Below, in pieces: positions 7,627 through 50,109 of a DNA stretch of 64,000 nt. Source of the DNA: Rhodococcus koreensis (GTDB lineage: Bacteria; Actinomycetota; Actinomycetes; Mycobacteriales; Mycobacteriaceae); assembly GCF_900105905.1 (NCBI RefSeq), contig NZ_FNSV01000005.1, positions 1,426,001 through 1,490,000 on the forward strand, in the 5' to 3' direction. The position numbers and the translations under genes are program-made. The notes below the pieces were generated by a model. It ran no database searches. It was not told the origin of the DNA and saw only the letters and a list, made by a program, of their open reading frames with translations. Positions within the stretch are counted from its first letter, which is position 1; every line of letters begins with the position of its first letter.

Positions 7627-7690
7627 GACAGGCAACTATCGCACAGCACCCGTGAGTGCGCGCGCCCGTGGACCCGGGCCGAGCGGTCCG

Positions 7691-12075: not shown

Positions 12076-12099
12076 GCCCGGCCGGGCTCGGCGTGGGGC
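12064..12099. terminator. Bidirectional hairpin terminator
   Basis: A near-perfect palindrome: GCCCCACGC and GAGCCCGG pair with CCGGGCTC and GCGTGGGGC around one T-G mismatch. It overlaps the last codon and stop of the YnfA-like gene and ends 8 bp before the stop of the convergent alpha/beta-fold gene, so it can end both transcripts. Confidence 0.8.
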
Positions 12100-12106
12100 C
12101 GCAGGT

Positions 12107-12673
12107 CTACCAGGGGCTGGTGCGGAGCACGATCTCGGTGGCCAGCTCCGCGGCCGCGGCCGCGGGGACGTTGCTGACGCCGTCGAGTTGGACGACGCGG
12201 AAGTCGGAGTAGACGAAGCGTCCGCTGGCATCCGCCTCGGGGCGCCGGTCGGGGTCCCCGACCATCACGGTCGTGGGGAGTTCGACCGCCGGACAGTCGG
12301 ATCCGCGCACCGCACCCGCAGCGTCGGGCGCCGCCGGATGCCCCCGGTCGGCGACGACGAGGCTCGCGAAGCGCCCAAACTGGCGCGCCGCCAGCGACCA
12401 GGCCAGTTCGGCCCCTTCCCGGCTGCCGACGAGGTTGACCCATCCGACCTTCAGCTCGTCGAGCAGGCCCATGACCGCCGCTTCGTCGAGACCGGCGATG
12501 TCCTCGGGCACGATCGTGCGCAGGTCCGAATTGTGCAGGCGCTCGCAGACGCCGTCGTAGACATCCGGCCCGTCGCCGGCCCCCGGTAGCAGCAGAACGG
12601 TGTGTTTGCTCTCCGGTCCGTCGATCCGGACCGTGCAATTTCCATTTCCCACCGCCACGTGCGTCAGTTCCAT
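12107..12673 (-). CDS. Alpha/beta-hydrolase-fold protein with degenerate nucleophile elbow
   Basis: 188 residues. TVLLLPGAGDGPDVYDGVCERL resembles the first strand and oxyanion region of an alpha/beta hydrolase, and VNLVGSREGAELAWSLA sits where the nucleophile elbow should be. The elbow reads G-S-R-E-G instead of G-x-S-x-G, so Arg stands in the nucleophile position. PTTVMVGDPDRR and a short C-terminus follow; a catalytic His is not evident. I think it is a non-catalytic or cofactor-free relative; the function is unknown. It stands alone, divergent from the decayed GntR/ABC locus. Confidence 0.7.
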   Translation of the reverse strand: MELTHVAVGNGNCTVRIDGPESKHTVLLLPGAGDGPDVYDGVCERLHNSDLRTIVPEDIAGLDEAAVMGLLDELKVGWVNLVGSREGAELAWSLAARQFGRFASLVVADRGHPAAPDAAGAVRGSDCPAVELPTTVMVGDPDRRPEADASGRFVYSDFRVVQLDGVSNVPAAAAAELATEIVLRTSPW

Positions 12674-12728
12674 GGGCTAAAAACTACGCGATCGGGGACC
12701 TCTTGCGCTCGAACCGCCCTAGTTCTCT

Positions 12729-12752
12729 GGTTCCTTACATGAGTAATGAACC
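12729..12752. promoter_or_regulatory. Palindromic operator of a GntR (YtrA-type) regulator
   Basis: GGTTCCTTAC, a 4-nt spacer, then GTAATGAACC: ten-base arms with nine pairs. It overlaps the ATG of the gntR remnant at 12746, the position of autoregulatory operators of YtrA-type GntR proteins. The site is intact although the genes behind it are broken. Confidence 0.65.
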
Positions 12753-13136
12753 GATCAACCGACGAGGCGGGCGTCGATGATCGACTCGGCAGACCGCTGT
12801 TCCGGCAAATCGCGGAACTCATCGAGAACTCGATCATCGACGGAACCCTTCCCGAGGAAGGCCAGGTGCCGTCCATCAACGAACTCGCCGCATTCCACCG
12901 GATCAACCGGCGACCGCAGCCAGGGCCTGAATCAGCTCGCCGCCGACGGGATCCTCTACAAAAAGCGGGGAATCGGGATGTTCGTCACCTCCGGCGCCCG
13001 GAACGCGCTGCGCTTCAGGCGACGCGAGCGGTTCGCGCAACAGTTCATCGATCCGCTCGTCACCGAGGCGGACAAACTCGGCGTCAGCATCGCCGAACTC
13101 GAGACCATGCTCGACCAACGGGAGGGAGCACGATGA
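12746..13136 (+). pseudogene. Frameshifted GntR (YtrA-subfamily) regulator
   Basis: The first 55 codons read as a winged-helix GntR start (RPLFRQIAELIENSIIDGTLPEEGQVPS-INELAAFHRIN). The frame is then lost near 12912, and a second frame resumes as SQGLNQLAADGILYKKRGIGMFV to the stop. Restoring one C in each of two C-runs between 12910 and 12930 would give the usual INPATAAQGLNQL helix, so two single-base losses fit best. About 118-130 residues is the normal length of this subfamily. Its stop overlaps the ABC ATPase start (ATGA), an intact operon junction. A sequencing error alone could explain the frameshifts, but not the deletions in the next two genes. Confidence 0.8.
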
Positions 13137-13790
13137 TCGGCACGGTATCCGACACGACGACCATCGCCTCGGCGCGGGGCCTCGGCAAGCGATTCGGCGA
13201 CGTCACCGCACTCGACGATATCGATTTCTCGTTGCAGGAGAACAAGATCTACGGCCTCCTCGGCCGCAGCGGCGCAGGCAAGACCACGCTCATGCAGATC
13301 CTCACCGGCCAGGAGTTCCCGACCTCGGGCGCGGTCGAGGTCTTCGGACAGGCGCCGCACGAGAATGCTCGGGTGCTCACCGACGTCTGCTACGTCAAGG
13401 AGAGCCAGAAGTACCCGGACGACTTCAAAGTCCGGCACGCCCTCGCGAGCGCACGGCACCTCTTCTACGACAGGTTGCTCGCCGACTACGCCCAACACCC
13501 GCGCACGGTGGTGCTGTCCACGCATCTCATCGACGAGGTCAGCGACCTGATCGAACACGTGATCCTGATCGACAAGGGGCGGATCGTCCTCGACGAGGAC
13601 GCCGGCGCACTCCGCGAGGGCGCCGTCGTCGTCTCCGGTCTGGCGCCACTGGTGGCCGCCTTCACCTCGAACAAGACCGTGCTGCACCGGGAATCGCTCG
13701 GCAGTCACGAACGGGCGACGGTGCAGACCACGCTGTCGGACGCCGAACGGGACCGGGCGGTGGACGAGGGCCTGTGCTCGTCGGATCGTT
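13133..13790 (+). pseudogene. ABC transporter ATP-binding protein with the catalytic middle deleted
   Basis: The N-terminus is normal: ARGLGKRFGDVTALDDIDFSL, Walker A GRSGAGKTT, and a truncated helical start (HALASARHLFYDR). The text then jumps directly to LLADYAQHPRTVVLSTHLIDEVSDLIEHV, the H-loop region. The Q-loop-to-Walker-B stretch, with the LSGG-like signature and the Walker B Asp-Glu, is missing, roughly 70-80 residues by comparison with YtrB-type ATPases. The C-terminus also runs out of homology after ERDRAVDEGL and joins the permease remnant. It cannot hydrolyse ATP normally. Confidence 0.8.
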
Positions 13791-14286
13791 CACGATCGGT
13801 GCGGCCATCTTCGCGATGGTCGGCGACACCGGCAGCGACATCAATTTCAGCGGCGGCGTCTTCTCCCTGTTCGGGTTCGCCCTCGCGTTCTACCTGCAGG
13901 CCATGACGCAGACGTTCCCGTTCGCACTGGGGACGAGCGTCACCCGGCGCGACTACTTCGCGGCCACCCTGCTGGTCGCCGCCGTCCAGGTTCTCGTGTT
14001 CGGGATACTGCTCTACGGCCTGTCGCTGACCGCGGCGTCGGGACTGTTCCTGGGCGCACTGCATCACCGGTGGCGGGTGGTGGGCCTGTTCACGCTCGGC
14101 GTCGGCACTCTCCTCGCCGCAGGCGGCGCCGCATTCGTGATCACGTGGCAGAAGTGGTGGCCGGACATCGGCCACTGGTTCGCCGATGCGCCCCGATCGG
14201 TGCCGATGGTGTGGCTGCCCGCGCTGGCCGCCGCGGCGGGGCATCCTCGCCGCGGGTGGACGGTCGTCCGCCGCGCGACGGCCTAG
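13774..14286 (+). pseudogene. Truncated ABC-2 permease remnant
   Basis: Starts abruptly in a membrane segment (VLVGSFTIGAAIFAMVG), so the usual N-terminal helix is gone. It continues as FSLFGFALAFYLQAMTQTFPFALGTSVTRRDYF, typical of the permease partners of YtrB ATPases. Another junction occurs after LTAASGL, where the ERATGG-type middle is absent. The tail reads GHPRRGWTVV where compensating one-base changes near 14240-14260 would give GILAAGWTVV. The remnant ends 4 bp inside the convergent cobQ stop. Confidence 0.75.
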
Positions 14287-15821
14287 CGCAGCAGGGTCGA
14301 CGCGATGGCAGGCAGCCCGGTAGGGGCGCCCGCCCCGAGCAGCGCCTCGAGGGCGTGCAGATCGAGATTCTGCTCCACCAGGTCCGCCAGCAGATCGAGT
14401 TGAGCGGTCCGGATCGAAGCGACGTCCGTGTCCGGGGCGGTGACGAAGCCGGTTCTCCCCGCGTGCTCGGCCACGTCGTCCAGCAGAAGCCGGCGGAACC
14501 GGTCGGTCTCGAGCAGACCGTGCCAGTGCGTGCCGTACACGGCGCCGCGGATACTGCCCTCCGCGGCGCCGCTGCTCGCGTGGAGCAGCGGCGGATCGCC
14601 GTTGCGGCTCACCCGCCCATGATGGATCTCGTACCCGGACACCGGAACTCCGTGGGCGTCGCCGCGGACCTGCGCGAGCACCTTGTCCGGGGCGAACTCC
14701 ACCTCGAGGTCGAGCAGTCCCAGCCCGGGTACCGCACCCCGGCCGGATTCGACGTCGTCGACGATGACGGACCCGAGCATCTGGTAGCCGCCGCACACGC
14801 CGAGAACCGGGCCGCCGCGTTTCGCATGCACGGCGATCGCGTCCGCGATGCCGGTGCGGCGCAACCACTCCAGATCCGACACGGTCGACTTGCTGCCGGG
14901 CAGCACGATCAGGTCGGCGTCCTCGAGCCGCGACGGATCGCCGACCCAGCGCACCGACACGCCCGGTTCGCACGCGAGCGCCTCGACGTCCGTCGAATTG
15001 GAGATGCGGGGCAGGCGGATCGCGGCCACGCGTAGCCAGTCGTCGCCGACCGGTGGTGCCGGACGTCCGACCGGGGCGTCCCCCACCACACCCAGCGAAT
15101 CCTCCGCGTCGAGCCACAGGTCCTCGGCGAAGGGAATCACCCCGAGCGTCGGGCGACCCGTCATCGCCGTCAACTGCTCCAGACCCGGCGCCAGCAACGA
15201 CACGTCGCCGCGGAACTTGTTGATCACGAAACCCGCGATCAACGCCTGGTCCTCCGGCGCGAGGACCGCCACCGTGCCGAACAGGTGAGCCAGCACCCCC
15301 CCGCGGTCGATGTCGCCGACGACGAGCACCGGGAGGTCCGCCGCGCGGGCGAGCCCCATGTTCGCGAGGTCCGTGGCCCGCAGGTTGATCTCGGCGGGAG
15401 ACCCCGCGCCCTCACACAGCACGACGTCGTATTCGGCGCGCAGCGATTCCAGTTCCTCGGCCACGACCGCGCGCAGGTGCTGCCGGTGCTCGATGTAGTC
15501 GCGGGCCCCGACGGACGTGACGGCGCGCCCCCGTACCACCAGTTGTGACGTGCGGTCGCTGCCCGGTTTCAGCAGCACCGGGTTGAAGCGGACGCTCGGC
15601 TCGAGTCCGCAGGCCGCGGCCTGCAGGGCCTGCGCCCGGCCGATCTCGCCGCCGTCCAGCGTGACGACGGAGTTGTTCGACATGTTCTGCGCCTTGAACG
15701 GCGCCACCCGGACACCCCGCCGCGCCAGCATCCGGCACAGTCCGGCCACGAGCACACTCTTGCCCGCGTCGGACGTGGTGCCGGCAACGAGCAGGGCGCC
15801 CCTCCACCGGCTCTCGATCAA
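14283..15821 (-). CDS. cobQ: Cobyric acid synthase (glutamine-hydrolysing)
   Basis: About 512 residues. The N-terminal P-loop ([21 protein letters not shown]) and [14 protein letters not shown] are CobQ hallmarks, followed by [15 protein letters not shown] and [14 protein letters not shown]. The C-terminal triad glutamine amidotransferase has the nucleophile in [12 protein letters not shown] and a catalytic His in GTHWHGLLE. It amidates the b, d, e and g side chains of adenosylcobyrinate diamide. The start must be TTG 15821, overlapping the map stop (TTGA), because no other start fits before the P-loop. It is not next to the main cob operon; map-cobQ coupling is unusual but in frame. Confidence 0.95.
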
Positions 15822-16675
15822 GGCAGGGTGAGGATCTCGTTGCCGGTCTCGGTGACCACGATGGTGTGCTCGAACTGGGCCGTCCACTTGCGATCCTTGG
15901 TGACCACGGTCCAGTCGTCGTCCCACATGTCCCAGCCGATGTCACCGAGGTTGATCATCGGTTCGATCGTGAACACCATGCCGGGTTCGATGACCGTGTC
16001 CACGGAAGGCTCGTCGTAGTGGAGGATGACGAGGCCGTTGTGGAACGTGGTGCCGATGCCGTGTCCGGTGAAGTCGCGGACCACGCCGTATCCGAAGCGG
16101 TGCGCGTACGACTCGATGACACGGCCGACCACGTTGAGCGCCCGGCCCGGCTTGACGGCCTTGATGGCGCGCATCGTCGCCTCGTGGGTCCGCTCCACCA
16201 GCAACCGGTTCTCCTCGGCGACGTCGCCCGCGAGGAACGTGGCGTTGGTGTCTCCGTGCACGCCGCCGATGTAGGCGGTGACGTCGATGTTGACGATGTC
16301 ACCGTCCTGGATCACCGTCGAGTCGGGGATGCCGTGGCAGATCACCTCGTTCAGCGAGGTGCAGCACGACTTGGGGAATCCCTTGTAGCCGAGCGTCGAC
16401 GGATAGGCGCCGTGATCGATCATGTACTCGTGCGCAATGCGGTCGAGTTCGTCGGTGGTGACGCCCGGCGCCACCGCCTTACCGGCCTCCTGCAGGGCCT
16501 GCGCGGCGATCTTGCTCGCCACCCGCATGGCCTCGATGGTCTCCGGGGTCTGGACCCACGGCTCGTTGCCTTCCTTGGCCGTGGGCTTCCACGCGTACTC
16601 GGGACGCTCGATTCCCGCCGGTACGGCGAGGACGGGAGACACGGTTCCGGGGCTCAGTGCTGTGCGGACAGACAT
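15818..16675 (-). CDS. map: Methionine aminopeptidase, type I
   Basis: 285 residues, with the N-terminal extension of the actinobacterial MapB form ([21 protein letters not shown]) before the pita-bread domain. Metal ligands are visible in [19 protein letters not shown] (two Asp), GHGIGTTFH (His), TIEPMINLG (Glu) and the final Glu in [10 protein letters not shown]. It removes initiator Met from nascent proteins. ATG 16675 is chosen; upstream sequence in the open frame is not family-like. It is likely translationally coupled to cobQ. Confidence 0.96.
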
Positions 16676-16733
16676 GGGTACCAGGTTAGACCCGCACCTG
16701 GCCGGGGCGCCTCGGGACCCGCCGCGCGGGTTC

Positions 16734-17441
16734 TCAGTCCCGCAGGGTCGTGAGGAATGCGATCCGGTCGCCGCGGTAGAGAGAACGCACCCGTTCGATC
16801 GGAACACCCGCAGTGTCGAGCGAGAGCCGGTGGAGCAGCAGCATCGGCATGGCGGTGGTCGAGTCGAGCAGCGCGGCCTCCCGCGGGGAGGCCAGCACGG
16901 TCTCGATCCGCTCGGTGGCGGACGCGAACACCACTCCCGTCTCGCGGATCGCCGCGTACAGCGAGGTGCCCGGGTCGAATGCGCGCGCCATCTCCCCGAA
17001 GCGGCCTGCGGGCAGATGGGTGCTCTCGAGCCCGATCTTCTCGTTGTCCGCGAGCAGGACCCGTTCGAGGTGGATCACCGGCGCGCCGATCGCGAGACCG
17101 AGCGCCTCGGCGAGGTCGGCGTCGGCGCCGAGTTCCTCGAACGTGACCAGTTCACGCCCGGGCACCCGCCCCTGGCTGACGGCACCCTCGGTGTAGGACC
17201 GCAGCGACAGCGGCTGCACGAGCTTGGGGCTGGCGACGACGGTGCCGCGGCCTCGACGCTCGACGCGTCCCTCGACCAGCAACTCGTGGATGGCCTGCCG
17301 CACCGTCTCGCGGGACACCGTGAACCGCAGGGCCAGTTCCCGCTCCGCGGGCACCGCGTCCCCCACCTCGAGTTCGGCGAGGATGGACTCGAGTTCGGTG
17401 CGGACGCGGTAGTACTTGGGGACGTTCGGCGTCCGGGTCAT
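16734..17441 (-). CDS. phnF: PhnF-type GntR/HutC regulator of phosphonate uptake
   Basis: 235 residues. N-terminal winged helix ([54 protein letters not shown] split over the usual GntR positions 15-70) and a C-terminal UTRA ligand domain ([18 protein letters not shown] and [15 protein letters not shown]). It is divergent from the PhnSTUV-type operon, and two copies of TGGTCTAKACCA-like palindromes lie between. The mycobacterial PhnF operator I recall, TGGTATAGACCA, is nearly identical. I infer a repressor of the importer, relieved under phosphate starvation or by phosphonate. ATG 17441. Confidence 0.85.
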
Positions 17442-17519
17442 CGCGTGACGGTGCCGATCGGCACGGACTCACCGGACGCGTCGCCGTCGTCGTTCATGCG
17501 GCCGAGCGTACCCGAAAAA

Positions 17520-17578
17520 TGGTCTATACCAATTGTTCACCTGGCGTTCCCCCAACGGTGGCCCAATGGTCTAGACCA
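17520..17578. promoter_or_regulatory. Two PhnF-type operators in the divergent phn promoter
   Basis: TGGTCTATACCA at 17520-17531 and the perfect palindrome TGGTCTAGACCA at 17567-17578 stand with centres 47 bp apart, between the regulator start (17441) and the binding-protein start (17626). The second copy is 48 bp before the binding-protein ATG. The arrangement of two 12-bp inverted repeats matches the known M. smegmatis PhnF sites. Confidence 0.85.
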
Positions 17579-17625
17579 AACGGCAGGCTCCTCGGCACCG
17601 ACCCCCTCATCGTTAGGAATTCGCC

Positions 17626-18663
17626 ATGCGTCTTCGCCCACGGATCGCCGCCGCCGCCCTGGCCGCGACCGTCCTCACCCTCGGAACCGCTTGCGGCGGA
17701 ACCGGTACCGCCGCGAACTCGGGCACCGACACCGTCACCGTGTACAGCGCCGACGGACTCTCCGGGTGGTACCAGTCGCGTTTCGACGCCTTCACCGAAC
17801 GGACCGGGATCGCGGTGAACCTCGTCGAAGCCGGATCCGGCGAAGTCGTCTCCCGCCTCGACAAGGAACAGTCGAACCCGCAGGCCGACGTCGTCGTCAC
17901 GCTCCCGCCGTTCATCCAGAAGGCGGACGCCCAGGGACTGCTCGTCCCCAGCGGCGTCGACACCTCCGCCGTCCCCGCTGCCGAGACCGACCCGGCCGGC
18001 CGCTTCGTTCCCGTCGTCGGGAACTACCTGTCCTTCATCGCCAACCCTGCGGCGTCGCCCGCTCCCCGCACCTGGGACGACCTGCTGTCCGACCGGCTCG
18101 AGGGCAGGATCCAGTACTCCACCCCCGGTCAGGCCGGCGACGGCACCGCGGTGCTGCTGCTCCTGCAGCACCTGATAGGCAAGGACGGCGCGCTCGACTA
18201 CCTCGCGAAGCTCCAGGCCAACAACGTGGGACCGTCGTCCTCGACGGGCAAGCTGCAGTCGAAGGTCAGCAACGGCGAACTGCTCGTGGCCAACGGCGAC
18301 GTCCAGATGAACCTCACCTCCATCGCCGACGACGGCTCGACATTCGACCTCTTCTTCCCCGCCGCCGCCGACGGCACCCGCACCACCGTCGCCCTGCCGT
18401 ACGTGATGGGCCTGGCGAAGGGCGCGCCGCGCAGCGAGCAGGGCAGGCAGTTGATGGAGTTCCTGCTGTCCGAGGAGTCACAGAAGACGGTCGCCGACGA
18501 GGCGCGCGGCGTGTCGGTCCGCGAGGACGTGCGCGCCGCCGCGAGCGACAGCGCCCCGGCGCGCGCCCTGCAGGGCGTCCAGGTGTGGTCGCCGAACTGG
18601 AACGACGTACTCACCGAACTCGATTCGGACGTCGCCGCGTACCAGAAGGCCACCGGGAGCTGA
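17626..18663 (+). CDS. phnS: 2-Aminoethylphosphonate-type ABC transporter substrate-binding lipoprotein
   Basis: 345 residues. A lipoprotein signal (RIAAAALAATVLTLGTACGG, lipobox Cys about 23) is followed by VTVYSADGLSGWYQSRFDAFTERTGIAVNLVEAGSGEVVSRL, the start of a family-1/6 (iron/phosphonate-type) solute-binding protein. NPQADVVVTLPPF and FVPVVGNYLSFIANP are typical of PhnS. The TAGGAA ribosome site is 6 nt from ATG. The protein should capture 2-aminoethylphosphonate or a related phosphonate outside the membrane. Specificity rests on the PhnF sites and gene order; a ferric or polyamine ligand is the alternative. Confidence 0.85.
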   Translation: MRLRPRIAAAALAATVLTLGTACGGTGTAANSGTDTVTVYSADGLSGWYQSRFDAFTERTGIAVNLVEAGSGEVVSRLDKEQSNPQADVVVTLPPFIQKADAQGLLVPSGVDTSAVPAAETDPAGRFVPVVGNYLSFIANPAASPAPRTWDDLLSDRLEGRIQYSTPGQAGDGTAVLLLLQHLIGKDGALDYLAKLQANNVGPSSSTGKLQSKVSNGELLVANGDVQMNLTSIADDGSTFDLFFPAAADGTRTTVALPYVMGLAKGAPRSEQGRQLMEFLLSEESQKTVADEARGVSVREDVRAAASDSAPARALQGVQVWSPNWNDVLTELDSDVAAYQKATGS

Positions 18664-18665
18664 TC

Positions 18666-19835
18666 GTGTCGGGAATTCCCACCGGGCGGACGCACCCGTC
18701 CCACACCCCCGCGGTCCGCGGGGCCACCGAGTACTCCGCACCCGTCATTACGTTCGACCGGGTCACCGTCGCCTACGGACGCGGCAGGGGTGTCACCCAC
18801 GCCCTCGTCGACTTCACCCTCCGCGTCGCCCGCGGTGAAACCGTGGCCCTCCTCGGACCGAGCGGTTCCGGAAAGTCGACCGCGCTGAAGGCCCTCGCCG
18901 GATTCGTCCGTCCCACTTCGGGTTCGGTGCGGCTCGGATCACGCGACGTCACCGGGCTTCCGCCTGCGAAACGGGGAATCGGTGTCGTCGTGCAGTCCTA
19001 CGCGCTGTTCCCGCACATGAAGGTCGCCGACAACGTCGCGTTCGGGCTCCGCGCCCGGCGGGTACCGCGCGCGGAGATCGGCGCGCGAGTGACCGAGGCC
19101 CTCGAGATGGTCGGCATGGCCGCCTACGGCAAGCGCCTGCCCCGCGAACTGTCCGGCGGACAGCAGCAGCGGATCGCGATCGCCCGGGCTCTGGCGATCC
19201 GGCCCGCGGTCCTGCTGCTCGACGAACCACTCGCCGCCCTCGACGCGCAGTTGCGCGAGACCATGCTCGGCGAGCTCACCCGGTTGCGGGCGGCCCTGCC
19301 CGACACGGCGATGCTCTACGTCACCCACGACCAGGGCGAGGCGCTGGCGCTGGCCGACCGGATCGCCGTCATGCGCAACTCCCGGCTCGCGGACGTCGAC
19401 ACCGCCGAGAACCTGTGGAAGCGGCCGCCCAGCAGTTTCACCGCGGAATTCCTCGGCGGCGCCAACCTGTTGCCGTGCACCGTCACCCGGGTGATCGGAA
19501 CGTCGGCGCGCGTGTCCATCGGCGGCGTCCCCGTCACCGCGACGGCCCCGCAACCCGACATCGGGCACGTCGCGTGGGAGTCGGACCTGCCCGCATTCTT
19601 GTGCGTCCGCCCGCACGCGGTCACGCTGACGGCGCCCGGCGCGAAGGGATCGTTCGCGGCGCGGATCGTCTCGACGGTGTGGCGCGGGTCGACCACACGG
19701 ATCACCCTCACCGTCGACGAACTCGAGGGCGTGCAGGTGGACGCGGACGTCGCCGGTCACGACCAGCGCACACCGGGCGCCGTCGTCGGCGTCCAGTTCC
19801 CCTCCGACGGCAGCGTCCTGGTGCCGGCGGCATGA
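18666..19835 (+). CDS. phnT: Phosphonate ABC transporter ATP-binding protein
   Basis: About 389 residues, GTG two bases after the phnS stop. Walker A GPSGSGKST (about 64-72), Q-loop VVQSYALFPHM, signature LSGGQQQR, Walker B LLLDEPLAALD and the H-loop VTHDQ are all intact. The C-terminal TOBE-like regulatory domain (FLGGANLLPC, VRPHAVTL) places it in the PotA/FbpC/PhnT group. It powers the two permeases that follow, and its stop overlaps the phnU start (ATGA). Confidence 0.9.
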   Translation: MSGIPTGRTHPSHTPAVRGATEYSAPVITFDRVTVAYGRGRGVTHALVDFTLRVARGETVALLGPSGSGKSTALKALAGFVRPTSGSVRLGSRDVTGLPPAKRGIGVVVQSYALFPHMKVADNVAFGLRARRVPRAEIGARVTEALEMVGMAAYGKRLPRELSGGQQQRIAIARALAIRPAVLLLDEPLAALDAQLRETMLGELTRLRAALPDTAMLYVTHDQGEALALADRIAVMRNSRLADVDTAENLWKRPPSSFTAEFLGGANLLPCTVTRVIGTSARVSIGGVPVTATAPQPDIGHVAWESDLPAFLCVRPHAVTLTAPGAKGSFAARIVSTVWRGSTTRITLTVDELEGVQVDADVAGHDQRTPGAVVGVQFPSDGSVLVPAA

Positions 19836-20737
19836 CCGCGACACTCGAACGTCCGCCCACCGAGGCGGCCCCGCCCCGTCCCGAACCGGTCCGGTGGCGC
19901 GCCATCGCCTGGACACTCCCACCCCTGCTGCTCGTCCTCGGATTCGCCGTCTACCCGATGGCGCGGGTGCTCACCGAATCCCTCGACTCCGGCACCGGTT
20001 CCGGTCTGGACACCTGGTCCGGCGTCCTCGGCTCGGAACTGTTCCGCACGGCGCTGTGGCGGACGGTGCAGATCGCCGCCCTCTCGACGCTCGGCTGCCT
20101 GGTCCTGGGTACATTCCTCGCGCTGGTCCTGGCGTTCGTCCCGTTCGCGGGATCGACCGTCGTGGGCCGGCTGATCGACGCGGTGCTGTCGCTGCCGTCG
20201 TTCCTGATCACCCTCGCGTTCACCTTCCTCTACGGCACCGCCGGGGCGGTCAACGCACTGATCACGCGGATCACCGGCGACGCCGACGGGCCGCTGAACT
20301 TCGTCGGCACCCCACTCGGGGTGATCGCCGCCGAGATCACGTTCTTCACCCCGTTCGTCGTCCGCCCCCTGCTCGCCGCGTTCACCCAGATCCCCCGCGA
20401 ACAACTCGACGTCGCCGCCAGTCTCGGGGCGTCGCCGCTGCGGGTGCTGCGGACCGTCGTGATGCCGGAGGCCTGGCCCGCGCTGCTGGCCGGTGGCTCG
20501 CTGGTGCTGCTGCTCACCCTCAACGAGTTCGGCATCGTCCTGTTCACGGGCGCCAAGGACGTGGTGACACTGCCCGTCCTGATCTACACACGCGGCATCG
20601 TCACATTCGACCTGCCCGGCGCGGCCGTGATCGCCACGGTCCAGGTGGCGTTGTCGCTGGCCCTGTACTGCACGTACCGAATTCTGTTCGCGACACTGAC
20701 GGGAGGCAGCCGTGCTGCTGTGGACGACAAGAGCTAG
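19832..20737 (+). CDS. phnU: Phosphonate ABC transporter permease 1
   Basis: 301 residues, about six membrane helices starting WTLPPLLLVLGFAVYPM. The cytoplasmic EAA loop is clear: EQLDVAASLGASPLRVLRTVVMPEAWP. Starts with ATG overlapping phnT by 4 bp and overlaps phnV by 26 bp, so the cluster is translated as one unit. Permease of the CysTW/PotB type, paired with phnV. Confidence 0.88.
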   Translation: MTATLERPPTEAAPPRPEPVRWRAIAWTLPPLLLVLGFAVYPMARVLTESLDSGTGSGLDTWSGVLGSELFRTALWRTVQIAALSTLGCLVLGTFLALVLAFVPFAGSTVVGRLIDAVLSLPSFLITLAFTFLYGTAGAVNALITRITGDADGPLNFVGTPLGVIAAEITFFTPFVVRPLLAAFTQIPREQLDVAASLGASPLRVLRTVVMPEAWPALLAGGSLVLLLTLNEFGIVLFTGAKDVVTLPVLIYTRGIVTFDLPGAAVIATVQVALSLALYCTYRILFATLTGGSRAAVDDKS

Positions 20738-21497
20738 GGCGCTGGCCCTGAGCCTGTTCGGCCTCGTGGTGACCGTCGTCTTCGCAGCACCGATCGCCAC
20801 CGTGGTCGCCGCGGGCCTCGCCGGATCCTGGACGGGTCCACTGCCCTCGGACCTCGGTGGCCGGAACTTGGCGGTGGCACTGTCCGACGAGAATCTCGCC
20901 GGCCTCACCGTCAGCCTGCAGACGGCGTTCATCGCGGGTGCACTGGCACTCGCGGTCGGGACGTGGGCGGCACTGGCGGCGCGGGAGGCGCCGGCGTGGT
21001 TGCGCCGCGTCACCGACGCCGTCTTCCACCTGCCGATCGCGATCCCGTCCGTCGCGATCGGTCTCGGTCTGCTGATCGCGTTCAACTCGCGGCCGCTGCT
21101 GCTCGGCGGAACCAAGTGGATCGTGATCCTGGCGCACACCATCCTCGTGCTGGCGTTCACGTTCAGCGCCGTCTCGGCGGCACTGGACCGGCTCGATCCC
21201 GCGTACCGGCAGGCCGCCGAATCCCTCGGCGCCGGCCCCGCCCGCGTCCTGCTGCGGATCACTCTGCCGCTGCTGCTCCCGGCCCTCGGTGCCGCGGCCG
21301 GCCTGTCGATCGCACTGTCGATGGGCGAACTGGGCGCGACCGTGATGGTGTACCCGGCGACCTGGAAGACGTTGCCGGTGAGCATCTTCGGTCTCACCGA
21401 CCGCGGCCGGGTGTTCCTCGCCGCGGCCGACACCACCCTGCTCCTGACGGTCACCCTGCTCGCCCTGCTGGTCGTCGGCCGCCTCCGCAGGCGCTGA
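20712..21497 (+). CDS. phnV: Phosphonate ABC transporter permease 2
   Basis: 261 residues, GTG start inside the end of phnU. Six membrane helices with the EAA loop AYRQAAESLGAGPARVLLRITLPLLLP. It would form the channel with phnU. The last gene of the operon; a hairpin terminator begins 5 bp after its stop. No phosphonatase (phnX/phnW) or C-P lyase genes are visible in the window, so breakdown of the imported compound must be encoded elsewhere. Confidence 0.87.
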   Translation: MLLWTTRARALALSLFGLVVTVVFAAPIATVVAAGLAGSWTGPLPSDLGGRNLAVALSDENLAGLTVSLQTAFIAGALALAVGTWAALAAREAPAWLRRVTDAVFHLPIAIPSVAIGLGLLIAFNSRPLLLGGTKWIVILAHTILVLAFTFSAVSAALDRLDPAYRQAAESLGAGPARVLLRITLPLLLPALGAAAGLSIALSMGELGATVMVYPATWKTLPVSIFGLTDRGRVFLAAADTTLLLTVTLLALLVVGRLRRR

Positions 21498-21501
21498 CGC
21501 A

Positions 21502-21547
21502 CCCGTGCGTGGTTAACGAGTCCTGACACTCCTCAACCGCGCACGGG
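21502..21547. terminator. Terminator between phnV and the acyl-CoA synthetase
   Basis: CCCGTGCG-T-GGTT pairs with AACC-G-CGCACGGG around a roughly 20-nt loop. It lies between two convergent genes and is symmetric, so it can serve both strands. Confidence 0.7.
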
Positions 21548-21559
21548 CGGCGGAGCCGC

Positions 21560-23179
21560 CTACTTCTGGCGGAGCAGGTACCGCTGCACCTTGCCGCTGG
21601 GGGTCTTCGGCAGGCTCGGGACGAAGTGCACGGTGCGCGGGTAGGCGTGCGCGGCGAACTTCTTCTTCACCAGCGTCTGCAGTTCGACCTCCAGTTCGCC
21701 GGTCCCGTCGATGCCGTCGCGCAGGACGACGAACGCCTCGAGCACCTCACCGCGCAGTTCGTCGGGCATCCCGACGACCGCGGCCTCGACGACGTGGTCG
21801 TGCATGACGAGCACGCTCTCGACGTCGAACGGCCCGATCCGGTAGCCGGCCATGATGATCACGTCGTCGTCGCGGGCGGAGAAGAAGTAGAAGCCGTCCT
21901 CGTCGGTCTGGCCGGCGTCGCCGGTGAGGTACCAGCGCCCGTCGGCGGTGAACCGCTGCGCGGTCTTCTCCGGTGCGTCTACGTAGCCGGTGAACCACAT
22001 CAGCGGGCTGCCCAGGGTGTCGATGGCGACCCGCCCCGGGGTGCGCGGCGGGGCGACGGCGTCGGAATCGTCCTCGAGGACGGCACACGCCCACCCCGGC
22101 AAGGGTTTGCCCATGGAGCCCTCGCGCACCTCGTCCCGCAGCCCGTCGGCCCAGGCGTTGGCGATGAACATGCCGTGTTCGGTCTGGCCGTAGTGGTCGC
22201 GGACGAACACGTTCAGGTTGGCCTCGGCCCACGAGATCACGTCGGGGGTGAGGGGTTCACCCGCCGACGACGCGCGCCGCAGTTTCACCGTCTCGGGGAT
22301 CGGAGTGGGATCGGCCCGCAAGCTGCGGTAGACCGTGGGCGCGGCAGCGAAGTTGGTGACGCCGAACCGCTCCATCACCTGCCAGGTGAGGGGTGCGGAG
22401 AACCCGGCGTGCAGCAGGATGCTGCGTGTGCCCGCGGCAAGGGGCCCGAGCAGCGCGTAGTACAGGCCGTACGCCCAGCCGGGGTCGGCGGCGTTCCAGA
22501 ACACATCGTCCTTGCGGACGTCGAGGCCGAACTCCTGGTAGGCGTGGAACGACGCGAGTGCGCGCAGGGGCACCGGAACGCCCTTCGGGGTCCCGGTCGT
22601 GCCACTGGTGAACAACTGGACGAGGGGTCCCGCGCCGCCGACCGTGACAGCCGCGCCCTTCACATCCGCCGCGTCGCGCGACTCCACGAGCGTCGCGAAA
22701 TCGAGAGCGCCGGAGCCGCCGCCCACGACGACGACCTGCCACGGCGCATCCGCGGGAATGTCTTCCCCGGGCGCCAGCTTCTCGACCTGATTGGCGTCGG
22801 AGACGACGACCTTCGCGCCGCTGGCACCGAGCCGGAACGCGATCGCCGGCGGCGCGAACGCGGTGAACAGGGGGACGTGGACGGCGCCCCGGCGCCAGAT
22901 CCCGAGCAGTGCGACCACCAGTTCCGCCGACTTGCCCATCAGCGTCGCGACGTGGTCACCCGGCTCCACCCCGAGGTCCGCCAGTGCGGCGGCGAAGCGT
23001 GACGACTGCTCGCGCAGGTAGCCGTAGGTGAGGTCCGTCGACGACAGGTCGGCTTCGACGACGGTGAACGCCACGTCGTCGGCGGGGTGTCGATCACACA
23101 GCAGTTCCGCGGCGGACGCCGTCGGCGTGTCGTACTGGTCCAGCAGTTCACGCACGCGTGCGGCGGGATCGGTGGTCAT
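21560..23179 (-). CDS. AMP-dependent acyl-CoA synthetase (acetyl/medium-chain type)
   Basis: 539 residues of the ANL adenylating superfamily. The P-loop-like motif TSGTTGTPKG is near residue 190, followed by WNAADPGWAYGLYYALLGPL, DHYGQTEHGMF and WYLTGDAGQTDEDGFYFF with the hinge Asp. The C-terminal acyl-transfer Lys lies in SLPKTPSGKVQRYLL. The enzyme should activate an acid through an acyl-AMP to its CoA ester. The AACS/short-chain style without a long N-terminal extension suggests acetate, propionate or a medium-chain acid; the substrate is not decidable. ATG 23179, divergent from the GAF-LuxR regulator, with a TCACAG-CTGTGA palindrome between. Confidence 0.88.
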   Translation of the reverse strand: MTTDPAARVRELLDQYDTPTASAAELLCDRHPADDVAFTVVEADLSSTDLTYGYLREQSSRFAAALADLGVEPGDHVATLMGKSAELVVALLGIWRRGAVHVPLFTAFAPPAIAFRLGASGAKVVVSDANQVEKLAPGEDIPADAPWQVVVVGGGSGALDFATLVESRDAADVKGAAVTVGGAGPLVQLFTSGTTGTPKGVPVPLRALASFHAYQEFGLDVRKDDVFWNAADPGWAYGLYYALLGPLAAGTRSILLHAGFSAPLTWQVMERFGVTNFAAAPTVYRSLRADPTPIPETVKLRRASSAGEPLTPDVISWAEANLNVFVRDHYGQTEHGMFIANAWADGLRDEVREGSMGKPLPGWACAVLEDDSDAVAPPRTPGRVAIDTLGSPLMWFTGYVDAPEKTAQRFTADGRWYLTGDAGQTDEDGFYFFSARDDDVIIMAGYRIGPFDVESVLVMHDHVVEAAVVGMPDELRGEVLEAFVVLRDGIDGTGELEVELQTLVKKKFAAHAYPRTVHFVPSLPKTPSGKVQRYLLRQK

Positions 23180-41958: not shown

Positions 41959-42843
41959 TCAGGCCTCGGTGGAGGGAGCCTCTGCTGCGGGGGCCTCGGC
42001 AGCCGGAGCCGCCTGTGCCTCAGCTGCGGGAGCGGCCTCCGCTGCGGGAGCGGCCTCTGCTGCGGGCGCTGCCTGCGAGAGCAGTTCCTGCTCCCACTCG
42101 GCGAGGGGTTCGCCGGCGCCGGCCTCGGGCTTCGCGTCCTTGTCGGCGCTCAGTCCGGCACGGGCCTGCACGCCCTCGGCCACTGCGGAAGCGACGACCT
42201 TGGTGAGCAGGGCGGCGCTGCGGATGGCGTCGTCGTTGCCCGGGATCGGGTAGTCGACGAGGTCGGGGTCGCAGTTGGTGTCCAGGATCGCGATGACCGG
42301 GATGTTCAGCTTGCGCGCCTCGGCAACGGCCAGGTGCTCCTTGTTGGTGTCGACGACCCACACCGCGGAGGGGACCTTGGCCATGTCGCGGATACCACCG
42401 AGAGTGCGGTCCAGCTTGGTCATCTCACGCGTGAGCATGAGGATTTCCTTCTTGGTGCGACCCTCGAAGCCACCGGTCTGCTCCATGGCCTCGAGCTCCT
42501 TGAGGCGGAGAAGACGCTTGTGGACGGTGGTGAAGTTGGTGAGCATGCCGCCGAGCCAACGCTGGTTGACGTAGGGCATCCCGACGCGAGTGGCCTCGGC
42601 CGCGATGGACTCCTGGGCCTGCTTCTTGGTGCCGACGAAGAGGACGGTGCCGCCGTGGGCAACGGTCTCCTTGACGAATTCGTACGCCTTGTCGATGTAC
42701 GTCAGCGTCTGCTGCAAGTCGATGATGTAGATGCCGTTGCGGTCGGTGAAGATGAATCGCTTCATCTTCGGGTTCCAGCGACGGGTCTGGTGACCGAAGT
42801 GCGTGCCGCTGTCCAGCAGCTGCTTCATTGTTACGACAGCCAT
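41959..42843 (-). CDS. rpsB: 30S ribosomal protein S2
   Basis: 294 residues. [32 protein letters not shown] is the canonical start, with [16 protein letters not shown] and [19 protein letters not shown] later. After about residue 250 the tail is an Ala/Glu/Pro low-complexity run (repeated AAPAAE), longer than in E. coli and common in actinobacteria. ATG 42843 follows a GAAAGAGAG-type ribosome site. Confidence 0.97.
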
Positions 42844-43160
42844 GGCTGTGTATCTCTCTTTCATTGCCGGTTGATGCCGAACGTCGGTGACGTTCCGCCC
42901 TGGCGCCCGTGAACCGTCGGACTCACATCGAAATGCGAGACCAGCCGACGATCCGTATACTGCGCGGACGCGCGAAGTCGGACTGTGCGAACACAGACCG
43001 CTCGATCAGTGTACGGCCTCCACGTTCCACGCCCTAACCGCCCCTGCCACACCCGGTCCACGCGTGCAAGGGTTCTGCGGAATCTGTGGACGGATCGGGA
43101 TCCATCCACAATGTCACCCGCCGCCCGATATTTGCCCCGGACGTGCGGGATCGTCGAGCC
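42844..43160. promoter_or_regulatory. Divergent promoter region of rpsB and the M23-type gene, with a 12-bp palindrome
   Basis: No gene is visible in these 317 bp. The half near 42844 is the rpsB leader. Next to the M23 gene, 43085-43110 is a palindrome, TGTGGACGGATC-GG-GATCCATCCACA, with 11 of 12 pairs, 51 bp before the ATG. It has no U-tract, so an operator is more likely than a terminator. Confidence 0.55.
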
Positions 43161-43703
43161 ATGACGAAGTTCGGGGCGATCCTGCGGGTCCTGACCGCGA
43201 CGGTCACGGCGACGACCCTCCTGAGCGCCGCGGTACTCCTCTCCCCGGCCGCCGAAGCCGCGCCGACCGGCGACTTCGACTGGCCGCTGCACCCGCGGCC
43301 TCGGGTGGTGCGGGCCTTCGACAATCCCGAGCACGACTGGCTTCCCGGCCATCGCGGCGTGGATCTGGGTGGCGTGCCCGACGAGGCGGTGCTGTCCGCG
43401 GGCGCGGGCGTGGTGGTGTTCGCAGGCACGGTCGCGGGTAAACCCGTCGTCTCCGTCGACCACCCGGGAGGTCTGCGCACCACGTACGAACCGGTGACCG
43501 CCCGGGTCACCGCCGGGCTGCGCGTCGGCCGCGGCACCGTCCTCGGCACACTCGAACCCGGGCACCCGGGCTGCATCGCCCCCGTCGCCGCGTGCCTGCA
43601 CTGGGGTCTGCGCCGCGACCGCGAATACCTCGGCCCACTCGGACTCGTCCGGGTGGCGCCGGTCCGGCTCCTCCCCGTCGTGCCCCGTGATCGCGGCGGC
43701 TAG
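43161..43703 (+). CDS. Secreted LytM/M23-domain protein, probably non-catalytic
   Basis: 180 residues. A Sec signal peptide (ILRVLTATVTATTLLSAAVLLSPAAEA, cut near 34) comes before a lone LytM domain. The first zinc motif is intact (His64 and Asp68 in HRGVDLG). The last motif, normally H-x-H, reads Cys145-Leu-His147, so the general-base His is replaced by Cys. That pattern suggests a scaffold or activator of cell-wall hydrolases rather than an endopeptidase. It neighbours rpsB as in mycobacteria. The stop codon lies inside a 29-bp tandem repeat. Confidence 0.87.
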   Translation: MTKFGAILRVLTATVTATTLLSAAVLLSPAAEAAPTGDFDWPLHPRPRVVRAFDNPEHDWLPGHRGVDLGGVPDEAVLSAGAGVVVFAGTVAGKPVVSVDHPGGLRTTYEPVTARVTAGLRVGRGTVLGTLEPGHPGCIAPVAACLHWGLRRDREYLGPLGLVRVAPVRLLPVVPRDRGG

Positions 43704-43773
43704 CGCCACTCAGCGCAAATCGTCGCGGCTAGCGCCACTCAGCGCAGATCGTCGCGGCTAGCGCCACTCAGCG
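43696..43773. repeat. 29-bp tandem repeat, 2.7 copies, joining two convergent genes
   Basis: The unit beginning gcggctagcgccactcag occurs at 43696, 43725 and 43754 (last copy partial), with one A/G difference between copies 1 and 2. The palindromic CTAG in the unit supplies the TAG stop of the M23-type gene (copy 1, plus strand) and of the ParA-like gene (copy 3, minus strand). Confidence 0.95.
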
Positions 43774-44810
43774 ACGGCGTGTCTGCCCGCCGACTCCGGG
43801 AAGTCGTCCGCGACCATCGCGGCGAGTTCGACGAACGCCTTGCGCGTATCGGGACGCAGCAGATCCAGATCCACGATCGAGCCCTCGGCGAGGTGCTCGT
43901 CGAACGGCACCACCTTCACCGCACGGCACCGGAGCAGGAAATGGTTGGTCAGTTCCGTCATGTCGATCATGCTCGAGCCGGGCCGGGCGGCACTGATCAC
44001 GACGACGGTGCGGGACACGAGGTGCCCGTAACCGTGGTGCTGCAGCCAGTCCAGCGTGGCGGCGGCACTGCGGGCGCCGTCGATCGCGGGCGAACTCACC
44101 AGCACCAGGGAATTGGCGAGTTGCAGAACGCCGTTCATCGCCGAATGCATGATCCCGGTGCCGCAGTCGGTGAGGATGATGTTGTAGTACACCTGCAGGA
44201 TGTCGATGGCCCGCCGGTAGTCGTCCTCGCTGAACGCCTCGGAGATCGCCGGGTCCTGCTCGCTCGCGAGCACCTCGAGGCGGCTCGGCGCCTGCGACGT
44301 GTGAGCCCGCACGTCCGAATAGCGCCGGATGTCCGCCTCGGCCGCGATGAGGTCGCGGACGGTCGAATGTGTCTGCACTGGAACCCGTTGCGCGAGCGTC
44401 CCGAAGTCGGGGTTGGCGTCGACAGCGATCACGCAGTCGCCGCGCAGCGACGCGAACGTCGATCCGAGCCCGATCGTGGTCGTCGTCTTCCCGACGCCGC
44501 CCTTCAAGGACAGGAACGCAATTCGATAGTCCCCCTGGATCGGCTGCCGGATCCGGTCGAGGAGTGCGGCGTCACGAGCCTCCCCGGCCGACTCACCCAG
44601 GTTCACCGTTCCCCCGGTGAGCCGGTGCAGCCCGCGCCGCCATCCCCGGCTCGGCGCCTTGCGCGCTCGCTCGAGGAGCGCATCCGCAACCAGATCCTGA
44701 TTGGTCACCTGATGCTGACTCGGCGCAGGAGCGGTGGCATCGCCCACCGGGGTGCCGCCACCGTCGTTCAGCCAGGACGGTTGCGATCGAGTCAAGTCTT
44801 CGCGGTCCAC
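43758..44810 (-). CDS. ParA/MinD-like P-loop ATPase
   Basis: About 350 residues. A Pro/Ser-rich leader of about 90 residues is followed by the deviant Walker [12 protein letters not shown] (about 103-113), [13 protein letters not shown] (Walker A') and [17 protein letters not shown] (Walker B region), like the MinD-type proteins of ESX loci (EspI-like) and large-plasmid partitioning. GGGGGA lies 6 nt before GTG 44810, against a TTG 9 codons upstream. No ParB gene or ESX gene is next to it. The C-terminus (AVAEWR) is encoded by the tandem repeat. Role unknown. Confidence 0.8.
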
Positions 44811-44871
44811 TGTTCCCCCGGGATAGTGCAGAAACAACTGCAGATTCGTGGGGCGACGCTACCAAACCGGA

Positions 44872-45553
44872 TCAGGCCGGGGGATGCGCCTGATCGTGCA
44901 CCGCACCGCAGCCTCGCCACGGACACGTGCGAGTAGAGCTGGGTGGTGGCGAGGCCGGCGTGCCCGAGCAGTTCCTGCACCACGCGCAGGTCGGCGCTGC
45001 CCCTCGAGTCGGTGCGTCGCCGCCGTGTGACGCGGCCCGTGCGGGCTCAAGGTTCGGCGCACCGGGGACACTATGAGGCGGTCCCGCAGCGTGATCGGAT
45101 CGTTCTGCTGCGCGCCCGATTCGGCGGCGTCCATCACGTCGGCCGCCTGCGACTGCCGCAGCACCGGGGGCAGTGCCCGATGGGCCTTCGCGGCGCCCAG
45201 CCGGGCGCCGGGATCGGTGGCGATGCGCCGGGTCCGCAGCAGCCAGACTGTGAAGTTGCGCACCGACGACGTCCGCCGGGCGAGTGTGGTCCGGCGATGC
45301 CGGCCGCGGACCGGCTCGCCGGCCACGACCGCAGCACCTGGATGTCGAGCTCTCCGAGGTATTCGTCCGGTGCCGTCGACAACCATTGCTGCAGCAGCGA
45401 CTTCGCGTCCGGGGCGTATGCCTTCACGGTGTGCGGCGATCGACCCCGTTCGAGCCCGAGATGCCGGGTGTACGCCTCGAGTACCAGCTCCAACGGTGCC
45501 GGCAGGTCGCTGCTCACAGAGGCAGCAGTCGACTCGGGCGGGACATGAATCAA
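44872..45553 (-). pseudogene. xerC: Disrupted xerC tyrosine recombinase
   Basis: Pieces of XerC are spread over three minus-strand frames. The N-terminal core-binding domain ([23 protein letters not shown]) loses frame near 45292, where one C is missing. [18 protein letters not shown] to TLRDRLIV continues in a second frame. About 45068 the text jumps straight to [12 protein letters not shown], so the stretch with the catalytic Arg and Lys is gone and the HxLR box reads HGPR. A lost G near 45002 and an extra T near 44905 shift the last part, where [19 protein letters not shown] still has the Tyr. Position beside viuB/dprA is that of xerC in mycobacteria. Confidence 0.9.
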
Positions 45554-45578: not shown

Positions 45579-46772
45579 GTGCAGCGAACGATCTCCATCC
45601 CGATGTTGTGTGTTCTGGCGTTAGTGTCCGCGATCGCTCCACTCGCCACCGACATGTATCTCCCCGGTCTCCCCCTGATGACGGAGAGCCTGAACACGTC
45701 GGCGCCGAGCGTGCAGCTGACGTTGACCACATTCATGGCCGGGCTCGGGATCGGCCAGCTCGTGGTCGGACCGTTGTCGGACGGCCTCGGTCGCCGTCGC
45801 CTGCTGATCGGCGCCACCGTCGTGACGACGCTCGCCGCGATGGCCTGCGCTCTCGCCCCGACCGTCGAAACCCTCATCGCCGCACGACTTTTCCAGGGAC
45901 TGAGCGGCGGCGCGGCGATCGTGCTCGCCCGCGCCTGCATCGCCGACCGGGCCCGCGGCGACAGCGCCGCCCGGCTCTTCAGCATCATGATGATCATCGG
46001 CGGCGTCGCACCGGTGGTCGCGCCGCTGCTGGGCGGGGCCCTGCTCGGGCCGGTCGGCTGGCGAGGGATCTTCTGGGTCCTCACCGCCGCCGGGGTGGCG
46101 ATGTTCGCGGGCGTGCTGATCCTCGTCCCGGAGACGCTTCCCGAGGAGAACCGGCACGGCGGCGGGCTCACGGCACTCGTCCGGAACCTGCACTACGTCG
46201 TCGGCAACCGCGTGTACCTGGGTTACGCGTTCACGTTCATGTTCGGGTTCGTCGCGCTCTTCTCGTACATCTCCGCGTCCCCGTTCGTCGTGCAGAACGT
46301 CCTCGGCCTCAGTCCGGGGCAGTTCTCGATGGTGTTCGCCGTGAACGCGGCGGGCATGGTGAGCGCCGCGATCGTGAACACACGGCTCGTCGGCACGTTC
46401 CATGCCCGGCAGTTGCTCGGTTTCGGGGTCACGCTGCTCCTGGCGGCGGGCGCCGTACTGCTGCTCGCCGCGACAACGATCGATTCGCCGCCCTGGTGGG
46501 CGATCCTGATCCCGCTGTTCGTCTCGGTGTCGAGCATCGGTTTCGTGATGGGCAACGCGACGGCGCTGGCTCAGGGCGAGGTGACCAAGGCGTCCGGCAC
46601 CGGGTCCGCGCTCCTCGGGGCAGGTCAGTTCGGTCTCGCCGCGGTGGTCTCGCCGCTGGTCGGGATCGCCGGACCCGACAGTGCCGTCCCGATGGCTGTC
46701 GCGATCCCGTCGGCGGGCGCCGTGGCCATGCTGTCGCTGCTGGTGCTGACGCGGCGGACGCGCACGTCGTAG
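45579..46772 (+). CDS. Bcr/CflA-family drug-resistance MFS transporter
   Basis: 397 residues, 12 membrane helices. [21 protein letters not shown] in helix 1 is the Bcr/CflA signature, followed by [14 protein letters not shown] (motif A) and [22 protein letters not shown]. Expels drugs such as bicyclomycin or chloramphenicol in relatives; the substrate here is unknown. GTG 45579, 25 bp from the start of the divergent xerC remnant, with little room for a leader. Its last codons form one arm of the terminator. Confidence 0.88.
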
Positions 46773-48954: not shown

Positions 48955-50109
48955 TCACCGCTGCCGCGACCATCCGGTGTCGTCGGAGCCGACGAAGCCC
49001 TCCATCTCCAGCAGCGGGAGCACGGCGCGGACCTGCTCCACCGCGACTCCGGACAGTTCGGACAGTTCCCGGACCCCGCGCGGTCCGGCGGCCGGCAACG
49101 CCTCGTACACCAGCAGGGCGTCGCCCGACAGCGCGTCGAGATCGCGGACCACCTCGGGGCCGTCCCGCAGCCCGATCGGCCCGGCCTCCTCCACCACGTC
49201 ACCGGCGTTCGCGACCAACCTCGCCTCACCCTCCCGAATCATCCGATTGCACCCGGTCGACGACGCCGACGTCACCGGACCGGGCACCGCCATCACCGGA
49301 CGCCCCAGTTTGCGCGCCCAGCTCACGGTGTTCCGGGCGCCGCTGCGCCAGCCGGCCTCCACCACGACCACCCCGTCGGACAGGCTCGCCACCAACCGGT
49401 TCCGCGCCAGGAACCGATGTTTCGCCGGAGTCGTGCCCGGCGCGTACTCGCTGATCACCGCACCGTTCTGCGCGATCTGCCGCAGCAAGCGCGCATGCCC
49501 CGCCGGGTACGCGCGATCCACACCACACGCCAGCACCGCCACCGTCAGGCCCCCGACACTCAGCGCCGCACGATGCGCGGCGCCGTCGACCCCGAATGCT
49601 GCGCCCGACACGATCGTCCACCCGTCGACGGCGAGATCACCCGCAATCTCCGCTGTCACGTGCTCGCCGTACCCGCTCGCCGCCCGTGTCCCCACAATCG
49701 AGATTGCCCGATCGGTGAGTTCGGCCACCGGGCGCGAACCGAGCACCCACAGAGCGAGCGGCGGACCCTCGTCCCGCGACCGCGACAGATTCCCGAAACC
49801 GAGGAGCCGCCACTGAGGCCACTCGTCGTCGTCCGGCGTCACGATCCGGCCACCCATTCCCGCCACCAGTTCGAGATCGTCCGCGGCCGTGTCCACATGG
49901 GCACGGGCCACCGTCCGCTCCCCCAGCATGTCCGACAGATCCCTTTCCCGCACGGCCCGCGCAGCCTCCTCCGGCCCCACCTCCTCCACGAGACGGGACA
50001 GCGCCGGACACGGCCCCTGCACCACCTTCGACAGATACGCCCACGCCAACCGGCGCGGATCGTGAACTCCACTCGGATCCGTTGCGTCACTTCGAATTTC
50101 CACCGTCAT
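48955..50109 (-). CDS. dprA: DNA-processing protein DprA
   Basis: 384 residues. An N-terminal helical region is followed by the Rossmann-like DprA core: VGTRAASGYGEHVTAEIAGDLAVDGWTIVSGAAFGVDGAAHRAAL and VLACGVDRAYPAGHARLLRQIAQNGAVISEYAPGT, with VVVEAGWRSGARNTV. A short C-terminal winged helix (ELSGVAVEQVRAVLPLLEMEGFV) follows. Loads RecA on incoming ssDNA in competent species; in actinobacteria the role is unclear. Starts inside the comM stop (ATGA). Confidence 0.93.
   Translation of the reverse strand: MTVEIRSDATDPSGVHDPRRLAWAYLSKVVQGPCPALSRLVEEVGPEEAARAVRERDLSDMLGERTVARAHVDTAADDLELVAGMGGRIVTPDDDEWPQWRLLGFGNLSRSRDEGPPLALWVLGSRPVAELTDRAISIVGTRAASGYGEHVTAEIAGDLAVDGWTIVSGAAFGVDGAAHRAALSVGGLTVAVLACGVDRAYPAGHARLLRQIAQNGAVISEYAPGTTPAKHRFLARNRLVASLSDGVVVVEAGWRSGARNTVSWARKLGRPVMAVPGPVTSASSTGCNRMIREGEARLVANAGDVVEEAGPIGLRDGPEVVRDLDALSGDALLVYEALPAAGPRGVRELSELSGVAVEQVRAVLPLLEMEGFVGSDDTGWSRQR

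Follow-up and report, generated by a model that had tools for sequence, protein, structure and literature searches.

The xerC gene of Rhodococcus koreensis is a pseudogene. It is very probably a dead part of a dismantled Xer/dif dimer-resolution system that was lost after the chromosome became linear at its terminus. This genome has no intact xerC, no intact xerD and no dif. XerC and XerD resolve chromosome dimers, and such dimers form only on circular chromosomes. The window, the whole stretch of 64,000 nucleotides that we analyzed, is C3:1426001-1490000 of the genome (referred to as G000; 10.31 Mb, 9 contigs, 8% estimated contamination). A first-pass annotation of the window had read the decay of xerC as a footprint of linearisation. 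Beyond that reading, we found that xerD was also lost, that the losses were parallel, and that chromosomes were opened close to dif.

The pseudogene lies at 44872..45517 on the minus strand and reads in several frames. It was delimited with tblastn and HMM pieces and by alignment with the xerC of R. opacus ATCC 51881 (G004); the span first given to it, 44872-45553, takes in 36 nt upstream of the start. Its downstream neighbor is an intact ParA/MinD-like ATPase gene (43758..44837, minus strand), and its upstream neighbor is an intact Bcr/CflA-type MFS efflux gene (45579..46772, plus strand). Beyond the MFS gene come viuB and then an intact dprA (48955..50109, minus strand; TIGR00732, 228.6 bits, above the cut-off). 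Two further syntenic markers are genes that we take, from synteny, to encode an M23-type peptidase (43086..43703, plus strand) and to be rpsB (41959..42864, minus strand). The locus comparison indicated that viuB, dprA, rpsB and tsf surround xerC as in most compared relatives. The placing of xerC beside viuB and dprA in the first-pass annotation was thus correct, although NCBIfam gave viuB no name and the name is that annotation's own. The neighbors match those of intact xerC in relatives and the aligned part is 90.5% identical at the DNA level, indicating that the pseudogene descends from xerC.

Lesions were determined against the intact xerC of G004 (927 nt including the stop codon), with 643 aligned bases. 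The R. koreensis gene has lost 283 nt in a single deletion and also carries four single-base indels, of which three are insertions and one is a deletion; the first count had given three such indels. The joint of the large deletion is at 45069..45070. About codons 150-244 are missing, and with them the motifs GIRVGELCG (Arg, from residue 157) and GKGDKERSVP (Lys, from residue 182). HGLRHT of the G004 gene is HGPRHT in R. koreensis, the LLGHA and QLY motifs near the C-terminus are kept, and the start codon is GTG instead of ATG. The catalytic residues of tyrosine recombinases are R, K, HxxR, H and Y. In the remnant, the first R and the K are deleted, HGLR has become HGPR, and the later H and Y remain. 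The TIGR02224 model (295 positions) matched the remnant in three fragments only (22, 53 and 30 bits) with no full-length frame, and scored 311 bits on the intact G004 XerC. The catalytic-core deletion and the change of HxLR to HGPR, both read earlier from the window, therefore hold against an intact gene.

The four single-base indels, and the contig number and estimated contamination of the assembly, could raise the suspicion that an intact xerC was misassembled or misread. An artefact is unlikely because the neighboring genes are open, xerD is separately deleted and dif is missing. With the 283-nt deletion, and with xerC broken or missing in six other genomes, error can practically be dismissed.

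All contigs of R. koreensis were searched with the NF001399 profile for intact XerC or XerD, and no match rose above the cut-off; the best scored 126 bits, on the 41.6-kb contig C7. In relatives, XerD scored 351-376 bits in most genomes and XerC mostly 250-294 bits, with a few partial matches lower. The intact G004 XerC falls just below the curated cut-offs itself (271 vs 279 for NF001399, 311 vs 335 for TIGR02224), so it is the score gap, not the cut-offs, that argues for the absence of XerC and XerD. At the syntenic site between a NUDIX gene and parA, xerD survives as fragments, about residues 85-113 of a 336-residue reading plus the last 49 residues. For dif, we used as query the actinobacterial core, which we took to be GATAATNNACATTATGTCAA. 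This core agrees with the Frankia alni dif as presented by Kono et al. 2011 (PMC3025954). The genome search with it found no dif within one mismatch in R. koreensis, the closest dif-like site having two mismatches (C3:332133). A second intact XerC with a dif site had been named as evidence against the linearisation reading; neither a second intact XerC or XerD nor a dif within one mismatch was found.

We then surveyed 28 Rhodococcus genomes. Full-length XerC was present in 21 of them. The seven without it were R. koreensis, R. jostii RHA1 (G018), R. pseudokoreensis R79 (G024), G005 (which we take to be R. opacus B4), G019, G023 and G041. All 21 genomes with full-length XerC had dif (19 exact, and G008 and G011 with one mismatch), and none of the seven others had it at up to one mismatch (Fisher p = 8e-7, a value that ignores kinship). 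After removal of G008 and G041, which are 74-75% complete, the counts were 20/20 vs 0/6 (p = 4e-6, again ignoring kinship). The distance between dif and dnaA was 0.49-0.51 of the circle in six of the seven chromosome contigs checked and 0.38 in G017; a mid-circle position is as should be expected of a terminus site. The FtsK gamma domain was found in 26 of the 28 genomes, the two misses being the 74-75% complete ones. G001 has intact xerC and dif and an xerD in two frames (L079:5353-6274), which is either a sequencing error or a fresh lesion.

Among 45 loci around dprA, 39 contained a full-length XerC (a single match of 296-308 residues) and six did not (L081, L082, L099, L127, L128 and L157). 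L081 is from a MAG and has a long insert, L082 (R. marinonascens) has an intact xerC farther away on the same contig, L099 and L127 are short contigs, and L128 and L157 are partial DprA matches. Circular actinobacteria such as R. erythropolis carry the genes at the same loci, xerC between the MFS and rpsB sides and xerD between pyrG/NUDIX and parA, with a dif core like that of F. alni (PMC3025954, in the part on dif), whereas in R. koreensis both genes are broken and dif is absent. R. erythropolis NBRC 15567 (G009) has XerC, XerD and dif; the account of rhodococcal chromosomes in PMC2947987 gives those of R. erythropolis PR4 and R. equi 103S as circular. A search of titles and abstract openings, covering few subscription journals, returned no earlier report of Xer/dif loss in rhodococci.

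A matrix was built from the 21 dif sites and used to score dif-like sites in the Xer-less genomes. In the stretches scanned, these sites scored 19-45 bits vs 48-59 for the 21 dif sites. Xer-less and intact genomes alike hold dif-like sites with two or three mismatches. The 28-mers of 27-45 bits lie at G018:C1:3423720, G000:C3:332129, G019:C2:159352, 2851658 and 4005689, G041:C911:17034 and G005:C5:4188. Some are in sequence common to arms or contigs of different strains, as mobile elements would be, and they may serve plasmids or mobile elements as Xer sites. Two were considered as relict dif and rejected. The G005 site (27 bits) is 4.2 kb from the left end, and synteny puts the place of dif near 156-165 kb. 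The G019 site at 159 kb (38 bits) is surrounded by sequence without similarity to dif flanks.

Another tyrosine recombinase and its site could have taken over the Xer function in R. koreensis, and the loss would then be unrelated to topology. The genome has 31 Phage_integrase matches, the xerC remnant included, and the dif-like site with two mismatches. However, its five best stand-in recombinases, each scanned alone with NF001399, scored 96-125 bits vs 271 for the G004 XerC and 373 for the RHA1 XerD. One recombinase occurs at equal score on four contigs, like a mobile element, and the terminus-flank stretches scanned in RHA1, R79 and R. koreensis held no dif-like site above 8 bits. A takeover is therefore very improbable. 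The repeated recombinase genes, with identical scores, stand side by side in a transposon-like manner (C1:1747-3296, C3:953192-955224, C7:3588-5137 and C8:326111-328143).

Three of the Xer-less relatives have linear chromosomes. Inverted terminal repeats were found in RHA1 (1-15287 and 16667-21649 vs the other end, 98-99%), R79 (16,026 bp, 99.95%) and G005 (1.3 kb, 87%). The chromosome of R79 is reported as linear (PMC8210697), and the account in PMC2947987 lists those of RHA1 and R. opacus B4 as linear, the latter at 7.25 Mb; the G005 chromosome contig is 7.91 Mb. XerC and dif are missing in all three, and XerD in two. They are near kin of R. koreensis and share its loss of XerC and dif. Unlike R. 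koreensis, RHA1 keeps an intact xerD, and the xerC of R79 and G005 is almost wholly deleted, not merely broken. These three genomes, together with dif in 21/21 vs 0/7, support the earlier proposal that xerC decay marks linearisation.

The dif region was compared using contig C12 of G004, in which dif is at position 100,620 with 100 kb on either side. In R. wratislaviensis NCTC 13229 (G015), a 1.39-Mb contig carries dif with both flanks, 38 kb from one of its ends. The region is contiguous in these two strains and divided between both chromosome ends in RHA1, R79 and G005. The right end of RHA1 (to 7,784,592) corresponds to C12 12134-89939 and its left end (from 26,573) to C12 101031-199992. 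For R79, the left end corresponds to C12 70482-90291 and the right end to C12 113680-200000. The right arm of G005 carries C12 13706-89939 and its left arm C12 113680-200000. Three short matches depart from this division in G005: C12 39285-41066 recurs on the left arm (79%), C12 113680-114769 recurs in inverted orientation on the right arm (80%), and C12 99395-99975, a segment to the left of dif in C12, is found on the left arm (87%). In G019, the dif flanks are 203-230 kb from one contig end and about 540 kb from the other.

The breaks were placed more finely on a reference stretch, L258, with dif at 9928. The 20-kb terminal repeat of RHA1 starts where chromosomal similarity ends, at L258 9117 on the right and 9125 on the left, 0.8 kb from the dif position. 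In R79, similarity stops at L258 9449 on one arm and restarts at 10098 on the other (a 200-base match, 74.5%), and the interval spans dif. The breakpoints of RHA1 and R79 are thus not the same. These results support the conclusion that chromosome opening maps to the terminus, within about 1 kb of dif. We also looked for tRNA genes as integration sites near dif, and the five loci scanned had none. Among the 53 ORFs listed in the first 20 kb of RHA1, five were searched with Pfam and NCBIfam, and none matched a terminal-protein family. The RHA1 terminal repeat includes a wax ester/triacylglycerol synthase gene (L273:6935-8449), which is probably present in two copies because it is inside the repeat.

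For R. koreensis, no telomere was found at the ends of C3, its main contig, and closure of C3 was likewise not shown. The left dif flank ends at C3:960,127, and pieces of the right flank are on C1 (66,753-110,086) and C8 (133,742-141,615). The right end of C3 is mostly syntenic with R79 8.54-8.60 Mb; therefore C8 and C1 probably belong to the right arm and were left unjoined in the assembly, the alternative being that they are plasmids. From the relatives and the split markers, the R. koreensis chromosome is probably linear. GC skew in twenty 20-kb samples of C3 was mostly negative left of dnaA and mostly positive right of it, a pattern that does not separate linear from circular. By eye, the right end of C3 resembles frame-broken peptide-synthetase sequence.

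A tree of 13 genomes was built from eight genes (8,673 columns, with some genes missing for some taxa). It grouped R. koreensis with R79 and G005 (100), RHA1 with G004 and G015 (100), and G019 with G023 and G041 (100); the order among the three clades was weakly supported (47). Because G004 and G015 are intact, the losses must have occurred separately three times or more, provided that no loss was reversed. Most lesions in xerC and xerD are found in one genome only. The xerC gene survives as pieces in R. koreensis and G019 and has almost vanished from RHA1; in G023 it is truncated at the 3' end, and in the MAG G041 one frameshift splits it. It is nearly wholly deleted in R79 and G005, in which the 5' remnants differ in length and the 3' resumption point is about the same, so this deletion may be partly shared. 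Deletions of xerD have four different outlines in R. koreensis, R79, G005 and G019.

The clade could instead have been linearised once in its ancestor, with G004 and G015 later re-circularised and Xer/dif kept. Every break is at the same place, the terminus, the node order between clades is weakly supported (47), and the right arms of RHA1 and G005 lose similarity just past the same stop codon. That shared junction is ambiguous as proof of a single event, as the sequences beyond the stop codon differ between RHA1 and G005. The intact XerC, XerD and dif and contiguous flanks of G004 and G015 would be hard to keep through a linear phase, the breakpoints differ (RHA1 at L258 9117/9125 vs R79 between 9449 and 10098), and most lesions are private. 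A single ancestral linearisation is thus unlikely, and separate losses remain our preferred reading.

XerC tends to be lost before XerD, with G001 as a possible exception. Intact xerD was found in RHA1 (L029/L253) and G023 (L043/L254), both without intact xerC and dif; it was not found in G041, an incomplete genome. The omega of RHA1 xerD was 0.063 vs G004 and also vs G015, and that of G004 vs G015 was 0.057. In both RHA1 and G023 the gene is under purifying selection with no relaxation (omega about 0.06), although RHA1 xerC is nearly erased. Either the Xer loss of RHA1 is young or XerD has another use.

Other genes of the xerC locus also vary. The ParA/MinD-like gene next to xerC (43758-44837 in the window; compared at L246:291-1248 and L066) is decaying in RHA1 and nearly wholly deleted in G023, and the xerC-locus stretches of G001, G006 and G011 had no match to it. 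In RHA1, dprA is broken (L245:2147-13596): the reading frame shifts near residue 90, and roughly 10 kb of DNA is inserted near residue 220. In G019 (L247/L248) and G041 (L249), viuB and dprA are separated by about 14 kb of additional DNA.

We propose that linear, telomere-ended DNA joined the chromosome of a circular ancestor near dif, at the replication terminus. Circular dimers do not arise from a linear chromosome, and XerCD and dif would therefore have been free of selection. Decay would have followed independently in several lineages, usually with XerC preceding XerD. FtsK was retained together with its gamma domain, presumably because it also helps to move DNA at division.

Xer itself may have opened the chromosome. 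Recombination between dif and a dif-like site on a linear plasmid would have added telomeres at dif and removed the need for Xer, separately in at least two Rhodococcus lineages. The breaks are close to dif, and the G005 chromosome end matches the end of that genome's own 245-kb contig C4 at 93.5% over 1.3 kb. Against this, the RHA1 junction is 0.8 kb off dif, and the first 8 kb of G005 C4 and of RHA1 C4 had no dif-like site. We regard Xer-mediated opening as improbable.

As for the order of events, we infer that linearisation came before Xer decay. In the reverse order, XerC or dif would have been lost first in a circle, dimers would have been costly, and opening of the terminus would have been selected as a rescue. 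The break within about 1 kb of dif fits this order too, as does the relief that linearisation brings to xer/dif defects in Escherichia coli, described in PMC1974809. In addition, xerC is broken in G023 and G041, neither of which is among the genomes of established topology. However, no genome among the 28 is known to combine a circular chromosome with the lack of Xer, topology being known for few of them. Rescue of an Xer-less circle is accordingly improbable, and linearisation followed by Xer decay is the order that we prefer.

Known systems agree in part with a loss of Xer/dif on linear chromosomes. Cui et al. 2007, as told in PMC1974809, found that linearised E. coli tolerates XerCD/dif loss better. 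E. coli with phage N15 telomeres, in the descriptions of PMC1974809 and PMC10331603, is alike in that XerCD/dif defects cost less when the chromosome is linear, but that system is engineered and has hairpin ends, whereas the rhodococci are natural and their genes have decayed. The linear chromosome of Agrobacterium tumefaciens is also alike, no dif having been found on it according to the relevant part of PMC2731167. The same part describes XerC and XerD as kept and a circular chromosome with dif as also present, in which A. tumefaciens differs. The genome account of Kineococcus radiotolerans (PMC2587704) gives a linear chromosome and lists XerC and XerD; therefore linearity does not force their loss.

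The effect of linearity on dimer resolution was previously tested, in the sources on E. coli cited above, in engineered strains, and the rhodococci offer a natural comparison. Close relatives with intact Xer/dif and a contiguous terminus stand beside linear ones at several stages of decay. RHA1, which has xerD without xerC, makes one ask which function XerD has by itself. The loss of xerC and dif is a simple marker with which to predict chromosome topology in draft genomes.
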